Source of the DNA: Dysgonamonadaceae bacterium
GTDB taxonomy: Bacteria; Bacteroidota; Bacteroidia; Bacteroidales; Dysgonomonadaceae
Direction: 5' to 3'
Length of the DNA: 32,824 nucleotides
Assembly (NCBI GenBank): GCA_028708095.1
Contig: JAQVZQ010000006.1
Span: 1 to 32,824, forward strand
In this document: positions 1,510-31,864 of the stretch, piece after piece
Numbering within the stretch: the stretch's first letter is position 1
How the letters are laid out: every line of letters begins with the position of its first letter
The notes under the pieces: model-generated
Databases searched by the model: none
What the model was told of the DNA's origin: nothing
The model's input: the letters and a program-made list of their open reading frames with translations, nothing else
Made by a program: the position numbers and the translations under genes

Positions 1510-1969
1510 GCTGTAAAGTTATTACATTTTTACAATAAATATAATGTTTATAAGTTTTATGTCTGTAAATATGAAATATTATTAAGTCAGCTTTGTTTTC
1601 ATAAATTTTCGCAACACTAAAGTTTATCAAAATATTTTTTAGTTGACGGATTCAATTTTCAACAGTTAATCGTCCAAACCGCCGCCTAAAAAATATTTTC
1701 ACTTGATTAAAACATATCTTCTGATATGCTTTTAAGTATATTTCATCATTTTATATTTTGCAAAAAAAACAATTATTCCTAAACACATGCCAAAGCAAGC
1801 TTAACTGACGCAAGTGACGGTGTATGAGATCTAGTTTTTTACTTTTTGCAGCAAACAAAGGGGGAGAAACATGACAATCATTTATATGTAAGAACAAAAT
1901 ATAACCCTTTTTGTTAATATTACAATTCATACCGTTAGTTATTAACAAAAAACACCTAACAACTTAGTT
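1510..1969. other. Intergenic region between rluF and the adenine deaminase
   Basis: No coding potential is seen on either strand. The region separates divergent genes, so both promoters should be here, but I find no clean TTTG/TAnnTTTG pair; TACTTTTTG near 1840-1850 is a near miss for the deaminase. The main structure is the long inverted repeat at 1629-1699, listed separately. Confidence 0.5.
1629..1699. repeat. Perfect 14-bp inverted repeat around a structured 43-nt loop
   Basis: AAAATATTTTTTAG at 1629-1642 is exactly complementary to CTAAAAAATATTTT at 1686-1699. The 43-nt interior is not random: it holds a second imperfect inverted pair (GACGGATT near 1645 against AATCGTCC near 1668) around TCAACAGTT. 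The same TCAACAGTT, in the same place inside an inverted repeat, occurs at about 6580. It could be a short palindromic mobile or REP-like element. There is no T-tract pattern typical of a terminator. Confidence 0.6.
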
Positions 1970-6295: not shown

Positions 6296-6547
6296 GTTTG
6301 TTAATTTTAAATGATTACTTCAAGGATTCATTTAAATACCTCTATTGCAAATATAATGTATTTTTTATAAATGTTTGGATATTTGCATGCAATAACTTCA
6401 ATGCCCATAAAGAACTATTTTGATAAGTACTATGCAAATGTAATTAGAGACTACTTTACAAACGCCCAATTGCTAAGAATGTTTTTTTATTAAACCTCCT
6501 TACTCAAAGAAAACCCGTTTTTTGCAAACTTCGAAATGCTTGAATCT

Positions 6548-6637
6548 TTTCTAAACATTTCTTCAATGGAAGATTTCATTGTCAACAGTTGAAACTTGAA
6601 TCTTCGACCGAAGATTTGACGAAAAGGTGTTGAAAAT
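6548..6637. repeat. Long imperfect inverted repeat with nested hairpins
   Basis: The left arm CTTTTCTAAACATTTCTTC plus GAAGATTTC pairs imperfectly with the right arm GAATCTTC...GAAGATTTGACGAAAAG. Each arm also folds on itself through TCTTC-nnnn-GAAGA, so the whole can form a branched cruciform. The left arm is nearly the same as the start of the ~420-bp elements at 6833 and 30795, but the centre (with TCAACAGTT) differs from theirs and resembles the element at 1629-1699. Confidence 0.6.
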
Positions 6638-6832
6638 CGAATCTGCCGAGTTTTTTCTGACGAACAACAGCCGAATTTCAAATCTTTGATGGTTTTTCTC
6701 TCAACAGCGAGTTGAATTCAAAATCTTGTGTGAAAAATTTAACAAATAAGAGAGGAAAATCACATTTACTCGAATTTCTCCTTCATTTATCTCTTTAAAA
6801 TTCAATTTACCTGAAACAAAAGCGCATTTATG

Positions 6833-7253
6833 CTTTTCTAAACATTTCTTCTCTGGAAGATTGCGTTTTCATCTCTTGTTCGTCCAATCTTCGACGGAAG
6901 AAATGGTTTTTGCCTCTTTTACAGCATTTTCTCTATAAAATCTACCAGAAAAAGCTCTTGATACGACATTTTCTTACAGTGAATGCAAATTTCAAGCGAT
7001 AAATGCACCATAATCTTTGTAGGATACAAAAATCAACATTTCTCACTCCAGTTTTTTATAGTGGACAATAAAATCGACTCTTGCAACTTGCAACAGCAAT
7101 CTTTTTATGAGTTTGCTATTTTCATTTGTGGAATTTATAATTTTTGGTGGAAAATGTAGTGCAAGGCTTCATTAGGAGCATTTATTACACTACGTTGGCG
7201 CAGAAGATACATCGCTCCTGAACAAATCCTTTTGTGTGGGTTTCTTCAGAAAA
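6833..7253 (+). repeat. Dispersed ~420-bp noncoding element, copy A
   Basis: This sequence aligns end to end, in the same orientation, with 30795-31213, at roughly 80 percent identity by eye with few indels. It starts with a nested inverted repeat (CATTTCTTC-nnnn-GAAGATTG ... CAATCTTC-nnnn-GAAGAAATG) and ends in TGTGTGGGTTTCTTCAG. No open frame is shared by both copies, so it is noncoding. It carries no transposase and no obvious terminal target duplication. It may be a non-autonomous mobile element or a structured RNA. Confidence 0.72.
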
Positions 7254-7414: not shown

Positions 7415-9613
7415 TTAAATTGCATCAATTTTTAATACCACACTGCTTCGGCGACTATTAACCACTGGATTAAAACCCACATTCATTAGAAATTCTCCTG
7501 AATAAATCTGTTCCTTATCAATTGGCGTTTGTGAATCATCATACAAGTTGATTTCTGTTAATCGATAAGTTTTGTCTTTATTTAATCCCTGCAATTTAAT
7601 CGGTGAAAGAGAAGGTTCAGCTAAAAATCTCCAATTGGTGAGATAATTAAACATCACACCTTCGGTTTTATCGTCGCTTAAATACATTATCGAAGCAAGA
7701 TCATTTTCGTAAGGGCTTGCTAAGCGATACATGTCACCATGCCATATCACGTCCTTAAATTCATCATAATTTCGAATAGTTTGTTGAGTGAATTTCATAT
7801 CCTTATCGCTGAGTTTATCAACTCGTATATCAAACCCTAATTTACCCATTGAAGCCACATCAATCCGATACTTCAATGGTTTATCGCTCCAGTTGGTTAC
7901 ATGGTTGCACATCGAAATTGCAGGATAATAATACGAATAGTTCCACTGCATAAACACGCGTTCCAGCGGATCGGTATTATCACTTAGCCAGAATTCAGTA
8001 AAATACTTCAATAAATCGTAATCAGATCGTCCTCCGCCTCCTGAACAAAGCATCATCGGCACAGTAGGGTATTTTTCTCTTATTCTTTTCAATACGTTCT
8101 CAAGACCTCTTACATATTCTACATATAGATGTGATTGTGAGATATTATTACGTTCCAAGTATTTTGAATGCCCGTTAAAAATGGGTGCATTACAATCCCA
8201 TTTTATAAATGCAAGCGTAGGATTTACTGTAAACATATCGTCAACTATATTATAAACAAAGTCTTGCACTTCGGGGTTGGTTAAGTCTAGCACTAATTGA
8301 CTCCTAAAATAAATCTCAGGACGATTTTCTTGACGTAATACCCAATCAGGATTATTTTCATAAAGCTCACTCTTTGGATTAACCATTTCGGGTTCAATCC
8401 ATATCCCAAATTTAACACCTTCCTTTTCAGCTTCATGCACTAAATAAGGAATCCCGTCAGGAAGCTTGCTTTTATTTACTTCCCAATCTCCTAAACCAGC
8501 TCTGTCATTATTACGAGGATATTTATTGGCAAACCAACCATCGTCAAGAAGAAACAAATTAACTCCAAGATCTTTAGCTCCAGAAAACAAACTCACTAAT
8601 TCTTCTTGATCAAAATCAAATTGAGTGGCTTCCCAGTTATTGAGTAATGTTAGACGCTCACCTTGCCCATCAAGCAAAGTGTGATTGCGAAGCCATTTTT
8701 GCAAATTCCTGCTACCCTTACCCCTACCCTCAAATGAAATTGTATAAATAAAACGAGGTGTTTCAAAAGGCATGTTTGGCTTAAGTTGATAAGCAGACTG
8801 GTAAGGATTAATACCTGCAACAATGTGCATGTTTTTAAGAACGTCCGTTTCGAACTGAAGAGAGAAGTTTCCATTCCACGCAATTTGTCCCATCAACACA
8901 GTGCCTGTGTTTTCTGTGGCTTGACCGTCCATTGATAACATAAAGTTGGGAGAGGTATGTAGGTTTTCTCTTGTTCCAAGTCTGCTCTCAATAGTATGCA
9001 TTCCTTGACGCAAGTTGGTCACTTCGGGTTGCATCTCTTTTGCCCAAGCACCATTATAACTTGTTAGGTAATAATTTTTATTAAAAAGATAAAGGTTCGC
9101 TGATGCATATTTATTTAAAGTCACATCCCCTTTCTCATTGTGCCTGATGGTTGTCCATTGTTCTATTACATCTTCCTTATTCCATGTTTTGTAGAATAAA
9201 TCAACAAAAAATGGATAAACTGGATCTTTTAATGTAATAGTCGTAAGGGTTGCACCATCTGATGTTTCTGAAACTTTATGACTATCATAAAGCAAATCCA
9301 ATGAATTGTTCCCATCTTCGTGTACAACAGCGATTGCAGGTTCCGTGAAATTGTTGTCTATCCCTGCAACAGCAAATGCATTGTTGTTTGATGCGGCTCC
9401 TTGCGACAGCAACTTAAACATTTTACCAGTTTCTGCATACTCTTGGTCCTTTTTCAAAGATTTACCCGTGTAAATAATTTTGAGTCGTTTATTATTGTCA
9501 GTTTGTAAAACTAATGCTGTATTCTGAGTTAGAATTGGGATCGTTATCTGTTGTGATGATAGCGAAAACGTTAGTGATAATAGCGTGATTAAGAGAGTAA
9601 TTTTCGTTTTCAT
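7415..9613 (-). CDS. Secreted alpha-galactosidase, glycoside hydrolase family 36
   Basis: This 732-residue enzyme has a Sec signal (residues 1 to about 20, ending LSLTFSLSS). Family GH36 features are intact: an N-terminal beta-sandwich region, then the catalytic (beta/alpha)8 barrel from about residue 325 with NNWEATQFDFDQE, LDDGWF (356-361), GIWIEPEMVNP (403-413), FIKWDCN (469-475; D473 is the expected nucleophile), CSGGGGRSDYD and WLSDNTDPLER (542-552; the SDNTD aspartates include the acid/base). The length is normal for GH36. The family removes terminal alpha-galactosyl groups from oligosaccharides or glycolipids. The signal peptide places it in the periplasm or outside. It is transcribed alone on the same strand as the two ceramidase-family genes, 1.1 kb upstream of them, across a repeat region. 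The start ATG directly precedes the signal peptide. Confidence 0.92.
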   Translation of the reverse strand: MKTKITLLITLLSLTFSLSSQQITIPILTQNTALVLQTDNNKRLKIIYTGKSLKKDQEYAETGKMFKLLSQGAASNNNAFAVAGIDNNFTEPAIAVVHEDGNNSLDLLYDSHKVSETSDGATLTTITLKDPVYPFFVDLFYKTWNKEDVIEQWTTIRHNEKGDVTLNKYASANLYLFNKNYYLTSYNGAWAKEMQPEVTNLRQGMHTIESRLGTRENLHTSPNFMLSMDGQATENTGTVLMGQIAWNGNFSLQFETDVLKNMHIVAGINPYQSAYQLKPNMPFETPRFIYTISFEGRGKGSRNLQKWLRNHTLLDGQGERLTLLNNWEATQFDFDQEELVSLFSGAKDLGVNLFLLDDGWFANKYPRNNDRAGLGDWEVNKSKLPDGIPYLVHEAEKEGVKFGIWIEPEMVNPKSELYENNPDWVLRQENRPEIYFRSQLVLDLTNPEVQDFVYNIVDDMFTVNPTLAFIKWDCNAPIFNGHSKYLERNNISQSHLYVEYVRGLENVLKRIREKYPTVPMMLCSGGGGRSDYDLLKYFTEFWLSDNTDPLERVFMQWNYSYYYPAISMCNHVTNWSDKPLKYRIDVASMGKLGFDIRVDKLSDKDMKFTQQTIRNYDEFKDVIWHGDMYRLASPYENDLASIMYLSDDKTEGVMFNYLTNWRFLAEPSLSPIKLQGLNKDKTYRLTEINLYDDSQTPIDKEQIYSGEFLMNVGFNPVVNSRRSSVVLKIDAI

Positions 9614-9924: not shown

Positions 9925-10358
9925 TTAATTTTCATACAAACCTTTAGCCTTACTCCTGTTAACAATAAAAACACCCATAAAAAACAATGCAATAGCTATT
10001 CACTTTAATGCGCCAAAAGTATCAAACCCCATAATTGTTACCGCAATGGTGGCAACGATGGGTTGAACATTGTTGTACATGCTGGCGACAGTATCTCGTA
10101 AGTTTTTCTTTCCTATCGGCACCATCAGATAGGTGAAAAAAGTGCTTCCCAATACTACAAATGCCATGTCTCTGTAAACATAAAATGGAATAGTTAAATA
10201 ATCGATGTGCAGAAACTCTGATTGACCAAATGGAAGATAAACGATGGAAGCAAAAAGAAACATCCACTTTAAATGTGACAGGAGAGTATTTCTCCACATT
10301 TTTTTTAAAGAACACAAAACAGATTGCATAACTGGTTTGTGCCATAAAGACTAAGAGG
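9925..10358 (-). pseudogene. Decayed C-terminal fragment of a DMT/EamA transporter
   Basis: This segment matches the C-terminal half of the intact EamA transporter at 15662-16582, in the same orientation and with very high nucleotide identity across about 420 bases. It begins in the middle of the gene (MAQTSYAI...), so residues 1 to about 165 are missing. Inside it, a short deletion in the codons for VTLMKW shifts the frame, and a GGA-to-TGA type change stops it after FGALK; after that stop, GVFIVNRSKAKGL is still readable to a TAA at 9925. It is a broken partial duplication that cannot make a transporter. The helicase gene and a small hypothetical gene lie between it and the intact copy. Confidence 0.9.
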
Positions 10359-15661: not shown

Positions 15662-16582
15662 TCAAATATTAGGAGACAAACCTTTTGCCTTACTCCTATT
15701 CACAATAAAAACACCCATAAAAACCAATGCAATAGCTATCCCTTTTAGTGGGCCAAAAGTATCAATCCCCATAACTGCTGCTGCAATGGTGGCAACGATA
15801 GGTTGAACATTGTTGTACATGCTGGCGACAGTAGGTCGCAAGTTTTTCTGTCCTATCGGCACCATCAGATAGGTGAAAAATGTGCTTCCCAATACTACAA
15901 ACGCTATGTCTCTGTAAACATAAAATGGAATAGTTGAATAATCGATGTGCAGAAACTCTGATTGACCAAATGGGAGATAAACGATGGAAGCAAAAAGAAA
16001 CATCCACTTCATCAATGTGACAGGAGAGTATTTCTCCACAAATTTTTTAAAGAACACAAAGTAGATTGCATAACTGGTTTGTGCCATAAAGACCAAGAGA
16101 ATTCCCATCAGATTCCTATTGGATGCACTGCTTCCTGCATCTAACTGGGTACTACTCACAATAATCAGAACTGCACCTCCACCTCCAATTATTACACCCA
16201 AAAGCTTTTTGAAAGTAATGGGTTCTTTTAAATAAAATGCAGAAATCACCATGGTGATGATGGGCAAAAAAGTGGTGACAATGGATGCATTGATGGGGGA
16301 AGTCATGGAAACTCCTGTGATGAATATAGCTTGATTAAAGACAATGGCAAAAAGAGAGGCTACAAACATTAGGAATAGATCGCGTGGAGGGACTTTCTCT
16401 CTTTTAACAAAGAAGGAAGCCGTCCAAAATGCTATCGCAGCTCCAGCCAAACGAAACGACACCAAAGATAAATATCCAATGGCACCAAACATCATAATGC
16501 TTTTTGAGAGAGGAGCCATTAACCCCCAAGCAATATTTGCCGTCAGCATGGCAAGATGACCTTTTATCTTTTCACTAATCAT
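15662..16582 (-). CDS. EamA/DMT-superfamily transporter
   Basis: This 306-residue integral membrane protein has about ten hydrophobic segments arranged as two EamA repeats of five: the first starts at GHLAMLTANIAWGLMAPLSKS, the second near NLMGILLVFMAQTSYAIYFVFFKK. PINASIVTTFLPIITMVISAFYLKEPITFKKLLGVIIGGGGAVLI is the typical end of the first repeat, and its equivalent YNNVQPIVATIAAAVMGIDTF occurs in the second. Members export or import small metabolites such as amino acids, nucleotide precursors or drugs; the substrate cannot be told here. A broken partial copy lies at 9925-10358. The stretch upstream contains the alaS terminator, so it has its own promoter. Confidence 0.9.
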   Translation of the reverse strand: MISEKIKGHLAMLTANIAWGLMAPLSKSIMMFGAIGYLSLVSFRLAGAAIAFWTASFFVKREKVPPRDLFLMFVASLFAIVFNQAIFITGVSMTSPINASIVTTFLPIITMVISAFYLKEPITFKKLLGVIIGGGGAVLIIVSSTQLDAGSSASNRNLMGILLVFMAQTSYAIYFVFFKKFVEKYSPVTLMKWMFLFASIVYLPFGQSEFLHIDYSTIPFYVYRDIAFVVLGSTFFTYLMVPIGQKNLRPTVASMYNNVQPIVATIAAAVMGIDTFGPLKGIAIALVFMGVFIVNRSKAKGLSPNI

Positions 16583-30279: not shown

Positions 30280-30630
30280 GCTGAAGATAGAGCAGTGATG
30301 TTGTCTAAAACACTGTTAGAGGAACTGCGCACATACTTTACAAAATACAAACCGGTTGTTTATTTAATTGAAGGACAGAATGGTGGAATGTATTCCTCAA
30401 AATCGGTGCAAGTGATTGTAAAGAATTCCGCATCAAAAGCTGGAATTAAAAAGCATGTAACGCCCCATACATTGAGGCATAGCTTTGCAATTCATCTGCT
30501 GGAATCGGGAACGGATATTCGTTTCATTCAACAGTTGCTGGGGCACAGCTCAATAGAAACAACCGAAAAATATATCCATATTTCTGATATCTCTAAACCC
30601 ATAATAAAGAGTCCGTTGGATTTACTTTAA
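30280..30630 (+). pseudogene. C-terminal fragment of a tyrosine recombinase/integrase
   Basis: About 116 codons in frame up to the TAA at 30628-30630. It reads AEDRAVMLSKTLLEELRTYF, then SSKSVQVIVKNSASKAGIKK, then HVTPHTLRHSFAIHLLESGT and LLGHSSIETTEKYIHIS. These are the last part of a phage-integrase-family catalytic domain: box HTLRH (H and second Arg), LGH and the tyrosine in KYIH. The N-terminal core-binding domain and the segment with the first catalytic Arg are missing; a TAA interrupts the frame right before AEDRA. It cannot recombine DNA alone. The ending ISKPIIKSPLDLL resembles Bacteroidota integrases of the IntI/XerD-like group. It is transcribed away from the minus-strand small genes. 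Confidence 0.85.
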
Positions 30631-30794
30631 TTTGGAGAAGCCAATTCCACCTATAACTATTCTGTGTCTATTAGAAAAAACATAAGCAGCACTCTACTGA
30701 ATGTTATTAGTGAGCGACTAAATCATAGGTTCTCGAGTCTCGAACCATTCTCCGTTATTCCCAAGTTTCGAGTCCATCAACAACTACCAAAAAT

Positions 30795-31213
30795 CTTTTC
30801 TAAACATTTCTTCAATGGAAGATTGCGTTTTCATCTCTTGTTCGTCCAATCTTCGACGGAAGAAATGATTTTGGTCTTTCTAATAGCATTTTTTTTATAA
30901 AATCTGTCAGGAAAGACCCTTTATGCGACAATTTTCTACAGTGGATGCAAATTTCAATCGATAAATGTATCCTAATTTATGTAGGATGCAAGAATCAACA
31001 TTACTCTCTCCAGTTTTTTATGGTGGACAACAAAATGGACTCTTGCAACAGCAATGTTTCTGTAAGTTTGCTATTTTAATTTGTTAAATTTATAATCTTT
31101 GGTGGAAAATGTAGTTGTAAAGCTTGATCTGGAGCTTATATTACCCTTCTTCACTGAAGCAGAACGCACAACGCTCCCGCACGAATCCTTTCGTGTGGGT
31201 TTCTTCAGAAAAA
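30795..31213 (+). repeat. Dispersed ~420-bp noncoding element, copy B
   Basis: Same element and orientation as 6833-7253. The front inverted repeat (CATTTCTTC-aatg-GAAGATTG with CAATCTTC-gacg-GAAGAAATG) is complete. At the end, CCCGCACGA and TCGTGTGGG form a 9-bp stem with one G-U pair, followed by TTTCTTC, terminator-like on the plus strand. In copy A that last stem is degraded. Confidence 0.72.
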
Positions 31214-31315
31214 AACTGCAATATTTACTAATGACACGGATGGTCATCCGATTTTTCTAGATTACTTAACTTTGCAGCTCTTTCTTCAGCATTAGCCACA
31301 TTTATTGAAATTGAA

Positions 31316-31432
31316 GATGTGTCTAAAGCCAACCCCTTATTACTAGTGCTCTTATCCGTTGGTTAAAACCAACGGCAATGGATAACCACCTCTGCTGAAA
31401 TCAAGGTCATAGATAAATATCTGCGCCAGCGT
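31316..31432. repeat. Extragenic direct repeat, first copy
   Basis: Aligns with 31747-31864. Each copy carries CCGTTGGTTAAAACCAACGG (here 31356-31375), a near-perfect palindrome with 9-bp arms, followed by GCAATGGA and ending in TATCTGCGCCAGCGT. The pattern resembles REP-like palindromes common in Bacteroidota. Confidence 0.7.
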
Positions 31433-31746: not shown

Positions 31747-31864
31747 GATGTGGTTAAAGCCAACCCCCAATTATTAGACCTCTTTATCCGTTGGTTAAAA
31801 CCAACGGCAATGGACAACCACCACTGCTGACATCAAGAGCACGGATATATATCTGCGCCAGCGT
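31747..31864. repeat. Extragenic direct repeat, second copy
   Basis: Second copy of 31316-31432, with its palindrome at 31788-31807. About 315 bases separate the two copies. Confidence 0.7.

Follow-up and report, generated by a model that had tools for sequence, protein, structure and literature searches.

Insertion sequences of the IS1634 family and their non-autonomous derivatives have terminal inverted repeats and can be flanked by long target duplications of variable length (PMC2266710). Autonomous members of the family are 1.5–2 kb in size. Only some members of the family produce long repeats: most make repeats of 5–6 bp whereas those of IS1634 and IS1549 vary from 8 to 514 bp, and the available part of the 2008 review that gives these values offers no mechanistic model for long, variable target duplications (PMC2266710). 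A second kind of repeat is represented by the GTAG- or CGTC-tagged REPs, REPINs and BIMEs, intergenic sequences of high copy number in which palindromes are paired in inverted orientation and stems vary while pairing is kept, the CGTC-type REPs having no dedicated transposase in the available part of their description (PMC3733652). Within the Bacteroidales, BrickBuilt (approximately 19 copies) and other MITEs of Porphyromonas gingivalis are also intergenic, and BrickBuilt has insertion-sequence-like ends around an unrelated repetitive interior (PMC4596501, in the part available). Our search of the literature on such elements, hairpin repeats of the Bacteroidales included, returned no description, most subscription journals being outside its coverage.

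The window analysed here is the 32 824-nucleotide stretch of contig JAQVZQ010000006.1 from a Dysgonamonadaceae bacterium (assembly GCA_028708095.1; genome G000 hereafter). Two sequences within it, at 6833–7253 (copy 1) and 30795–31213 (copy 2), appear to be degraded copies of a mobile DNA element that is non-coding and present many times in the genome. This element resembles the IS1634 family in its terminal inverted repeats and long, variable duplications but, unlike the insertion sequences, it has no transposase gene and its interior is unrelated to theirs. It shares with REPs, REPINs and BIMEs the inverted pairing of palindromes, intergenic position, high copy number and variable but paired stems, and differs from them in that a conserved middle connects two double hairpins and that, in this genome, transposon ends are present as well. 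BrickBuilt is the nearest analogue in overall design, but its ends are of IS5 type with short or no duplications, its interior consists of 23-nt tandem repeats with no double hairpins, and it is limited to Porphyromonas, as far as the available part of the source describes it (PMC4596501).

A first-pass annotation made from the letters of the window had claimed that the two sequences align over their whole length in the same orientation, and so they do (82% identity over 418 of 419 nt, E = 1.8e-119, blastn). Its count of two copies was far too low: the genome-wide search of G000 (3.76 Mb in 454 contigs, 92% complete) yielded 25 copies covering at least 291 of the 419 nt, plus shorter fragments; the copies other than the window's own are 76–91% identical to it. 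The activity of the element is probably old, because these copies have diverged by 9–24% from the window copy. The limits proposed for the element also had to be moved, since copy 1 has an extra double hairpin 287 bp upstream (6546–6625) and the homology of copy 2 runs from about 30726 to 31403. Judging from the better copies, the full-length form is a 0.94–1.28 kb element with terminal inverted repeats, of which the 419-bp sequence is the interior; lengths between the ends were, within a base or so, 944 (C266), 951 (C341), 1041 (C247), 1139 (C234), 1266 (C125) and 1277 bp (C334). The interior of this form contains two direct repeats of the double hairpin, 287 bp apart. A solo 3′ module, or its terminal hairpin alone, was seen at C52, C111, C175, C255, C192, C208, C165, C243 and C209. 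By eye, an insertion in Bacteroidales bacterium STCSWMC_213 (L148) and its flank are the same as at C266 of G000.

Neither window copy has two recognisable ends (Table 1). With the full-length element of C334 as blastn query, positions 222–328 matched 30726–30833 and positions 576–1174 matched 30795–31403; the stretch between the two repeats is lost from copy 2, and its left and right modules have one fused hairpin in common. The segment 30795–30833 matches both internal repeats, and the same fused form is present in C448 and C73 (blastn). It is this fusion of the internal repeats, and nothing else, that places a double hairpin at the start of copy 2. The opening double hairpin described for both copies is real (none of 200 dinucleotide shuffles was as good in either case), while the closing hairpin stands in copy 2 and has degenerated in copy 1, where 112 of 200 shuffles equal it (z 0.21). 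The additional upstream double hairpin of copy 1 reached a z of only −1.72, 11 of 200 shuffles being as good. The further family hairpin at 1624–1702 has unrelated, A+T-rich stem arms with the same kind of loop, and its outer arm is paired at 14 of 14 positions.

Table 1. Features of the hairpin element and its relatives in the 32 824-nucleotide window.
Feature	Position	Strand	Evidence
Further family hairpin	1624–1702	+	Covariance model R1, 40.6 bits, E 1.1e-5; fold z −3.39
Core of the element (copy 1), lacking both outer modules	6546–7253	+	blastn, query 287–985 at 6543–7253
First double hairpin of copy 1	6547–6625	+	R1, 75.2 bits, E 1.7e-13
Second double hairpin of copy 1	6834–6912	+	R1, 75.3 bits, E 1.6e-13; z −4.55
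Probable decayed left terminal inverted repeat of copy 2 (tentative)	30696–30729	+	By-eye comparison with left-end consensus TCTGACTTGTCCATTTTAGTGCGACAAAATCATAGG
Copy 2, deletion derivative with left module joined to right module via a fused double hairpin	30726–31403	+	blastn
Double hairpin of copy 2	30796–30874	+	R1, 82.9 bits, E 3.1e-15; z −3.65
Terminal hairpin CCCGCACGAATCCTTTCGTGTGGG, followed by TTTCTTC	31176–31199	+	z −4.06; solo module copies elsewhere in the genome
Small hairpin CCGTTGGTTAAAACCAACGG of the right module	31356–31375	+	Sequence; common to full-length copies
Separate copy of the small hairpin module (GGCTTTAGCCACAT...)	31747–31810	+	blastn, E 1.9e-5

The small hairpin module GGCTTTAGCCACAT... 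also lies inside full-length elements. As a standalone unit (GGCTTTAGCCACAT...ATGTGGCTAAAGCC and CCGTCGGTTAAAACCGACGG) it occurs in genomes G045 and G098, at loci that include L094, L095 and L100, and neither of these genomes gave a double-hairpin match. Directly upstream of copy 2, at 30295–30630, lies what appears to be a truncated tyrosine recombinase, of which the C-terminal part remains (Phage_integrase, E 1.4e-22). A tyrosine-recombinase element was considered and set aside, the fragment being upstream of copy 2 alone among the two window copies; for an integron attC-like site, too, this truncated gene was the one recombinase seen beside copy 2. Elsewhere in the window, the frames at 10000–10345, judged from their translations, are similar to the C-terminal portion of the EamA-like transporter encoded at 15662–16582 and form a duplicated, broken fragment. 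A coding element is unlikely. The 420-bp part contains no frame of at least 120 aa, and the longest frames of the copies (mean 78) lie near composition controls (mean 66, 95th percentile 102). The claim that no open frame is shared needs a slight correction, since the consensus holds a 108-codon frame open from codon 4, with no start near its beginning, and a weak third-position excess remains (variation of 0.098 against about 0.07 at the other positions).

The terminal inverted repeats of the better copies have the form CCTGACTTGTCC...GGACAAGTCAGG, the left end reading (C/T)CTGACTTGTCC and the right end GGACAAGTCAGG. With up to 6 mismatches of 29 allowed, 14 of the 25 copies showed a left end, and C334 makes 15; the candidate left end of copy 2 was missed by a mismatch scan that allowed 6 of 29. 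An exact-pattern scan of the contig collection found the end motif in 76 stretches, nearly all of them from Bacteroidota. Where both ends were present they lay approximately 1.6 kb apart and enclosed an open frame of about 500 aa, and the frame tested matched the IS1634 transposase model (NF033559, transpos_IS1634, E = 1.5e-91) as well as PF01609. The ends CCTGACTTGTCC.TTTTAGTGCG are common to the hairpin elements and to elements coding for NF033559-type transposases. Perfect duplications abutting these ends were found in 4 of the 16 elements elsewhere that had usable flanks (29, 35, 112 and 227 bp), the other 12 having no duplication that reached 85% identity without gaps; no mispaired flank control (0 of 240) reached 12 bp. 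A 518-bp element in Bacteroidales bacterium STCSWMC_95 (L154, 1267–1785, + strand) has the same ends and a perfect 227-bp duplication.

Flank matches were also found at the hairpin elements themselves, where five of the six with both ends defined exceeded all 42 mispaired controls, or six of seven tested elements when C206 is included. Matches abutting the ends measured 24 (C341), 37 (C206), about 50 (C247) and about 57 nt (C125), and two further ones lay 9 and 51 nt off the right end; C334 has both ends and no flank match. The C206 element (7534–7794, L077) is 261 bp long, with the same IS1634-type ends, an unrelated interior and a 37-bp duplication. Long duplications are also made by IS1182. 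As a source of the ends, IS1182 was rejected, the sole complete IS1182-type gene, at C152, having other ends. Because of the shared ends, the long duplications and the flank matches, we regard the element in this genome as a non-autonomous passenger of IS1634-type ends. The earlier suggestion of a non-autonomous mobile element therefore stands, on the strength of the shared ends, the long target duplications and an interior with no transposase.

A search of G000 with the transposase query gave a single match, a partial relic at C423, and none inside any copy of the element. Further genes were picked up with the IS1634 family model, at C321, C264, C289, C433 and C60, the last two (loci L085 and L088) weakly. 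No paired end motif within 3 mismatches of CCTGACTTGTCC was found by the genes at C321, C264 and C423, and the gene at C289 is without matching ends. An autonomous partner with the same ends was thus not found in this assembly, which is weak evidence because the assembly is 92% complete and in 454 contigs; with such fragmentation, a multi-copy insertion sequence could be lost at contig ends.

The interior has a wider distribution than these ends. With the C247 element as query, pieces were found in 5 of 101 genomes of the family, and two genomes of the same genus, G097 and G099, again have paired double hairpins separated by a related middle segment, the core being two double hairpins approximately 245–287 bp apart. 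With 46 candidates scored per genome, the covariance model gave at least 46 matches in G000, at least 43 in G097 and at least 46 in G099, both strands of a palindrome sometimes being counted, together with one place in G050, of another genus; among the matches listed, 4 of the 101 family genomes were represented and G098 had none. Across 393 genomes of the order, the one genome with a hairpin among the matches listed was that of the window itself, a weak result given the strict filters and the 12 candidates scored per genome. In the congener DNA (20 regions of G099 and 19 of G097; 99 610 bases) we found one near-match to the IS1634 ends, and no flank duplication at the 11 of 39 loci with visible ends, these ends being uncertain. 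At one congener locus (L105, about 655–767) there are three palindromic boxes with two spacers, which suggests that units may be added.

Stem families differ even inside a single genome. Stems of CTACC and CCCC type occur in G097 and of CCACG and CTACG type in G099, and an A+T-rich type is found in G000 (window 1624–1702, C448 and C79). In a MAFFT alignment of 16 hairpins with a 32-pair structure, 45 cells carried double changes, compared with 6–12 when the structure was slid and 30.1 (sd 4.8) after shuffling, and the covariation score was 0.230 against 0.073–0.095 slid; for pairs carrying a double change and for further pair types, two of five measures used, the values were no higher than after shuffling. 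Fused hairpins (L001, L013 and L023) were left out of the two-hairpin alignment, and the second hairpin of L105, with its three boxes, out of alignment A2. The check for compensatory changes that the first-pass annotation had proposed was hence positive. The paired double hairpins of the core make up a family at the level of the genus, in which stems change sequence and stay paired. This core is older or wider in the genus than the IS1634 ends, and in the congeners some agent has multiplied it. A larger transposon around the sequence had been named as what would reduce it to a fragment; it is indeed the interior of a larger element here, but the core occurs in congeners without those ends.

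One candidate for such an agent is a RAYT (Y1) transposase that moves the hairpins, as REP dimers of the GTAG or CGTC superfamily, in single-stranded form. The palindromic boxes do lie in inverted pairs around a spacer of 20-odd nt, and Y1 proteins are present in all four members of the genus examined. In a set of 107 distinct, non-overlapping hairpins (A3, thinned from the best 150 of 224 model matches), 105 lay outside frames of at least 120 aa and 26 had CGTC just before the second box. The same count speaks against this origin, since the tag, counted as CGTC alone, is not conserved, and there is no adjoining RAYT: no hairpin scored E ≤ 0.1 at any of the 11 Y1_Tnp loci in the four genomes, the single weak match having E 0.96, G098 has a Y1 protein but no hairpin among the matches listed, and paired double hairpins with a conserved middle of approximately 170–210 bp exceed the size described for REPINs. 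We consider a REP/REPIN-type origin rather unlikely. Equally doubtful, in our estimate, is an unrecognised mobile system of hairpin DNA, belonging to a single Bacteroidales genus, which would use the double hairpin as its unit of recognition and replication, a unit that would also hitch-hike inside the ends of an ordinary IS1634 transposon. If that were so, the enzyme would read the loop, the junction and the shape, so that stems could drift freely while pairing, as in the forms CTTC/GAAG, CCCC/GGGG, CCACG/CGTGG, CTACC/GGTAG and the A+T-rich form.

A structured RNA family, in which the double hairpins would be transcribed and act as RNA with mobility secondary, had been put forward in the first-pass annotation and now looks improbable. 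Stable folds and compensated stem changes fit it, as do the low divergence of the hairpins (0.009 and 0.039 for the first 80 nt; 0.071–0.154 elsewhere, the last 15 nt excepted) and the gene neighbourhoods (49 tandem, 20 convergent and 5 divergent among 74 with both neighbours in view). Compensated changes in palindromes can also arise by template switching during replication. They do not separate RNA from palindromic DNA, because the latter explains them equally well. Among imperfect pairs at the 14 core pairs (at least 75% Watson–Crick), G–U (50) was in no excess over A–C (42; p = 0.47; per genome 4/2, 18/12 and 27/28), and over all 29 pairs A–C exceeded G–U (215 against 144), mainly at internal-loop columns. 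There is no sign of strand-specific RNA, because the two mispairs are equally frequent, although the cells are not independent and the comparison is therefore a lack of evidence for RNA and not its disproof. Furthermore, the model matches both strands at many sites, no Rfam match was obtained, and the copies are numerous and dispersed. Most likely, the hairpins act as DNA rather than RNA. A classical MITE, i.e. a simple internal-deletion derivative of one IS1634-family insertion sequence, would account for the shared ends and long duplications but is very unlikely, as the transposase query matches inside no copy and homologues of the interior occur in congener elements that lack these ends.

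We thus favour, as the probable explanation, a non-autonomous element of 0.94–1.28 kb whose IS1634-type ends are moved in trans and whose core belongs to a genus-level double-hairpin family acting as DNA. An IS1634-family transposase supplied in trans would bind the terminal inverted repeats CCTGACTTGTCC.TTTTAGTGCG and insert the element elsewhere, leaving a long target duplication of variable length; we infer both the enzyme and the transposition event, because the assembly has no such gene between matching ends. The shortened form arises when the two hairpin repeats fuse and the stretch between them is deleted, as has happened in copy 2. The hairpins themselves may serve, by analogy with REP and other hairpin-recognising systems, as a cruciform or single-strand substrate for some enzyme.

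What this locus presents is a hairpin repeat riding inside IS1634-type transposon ends. Stems of different sequence and the same shape form a natural series in at least three related genomes, and this series would allow a test of which kind of molecule and enzyme keeps them paired.
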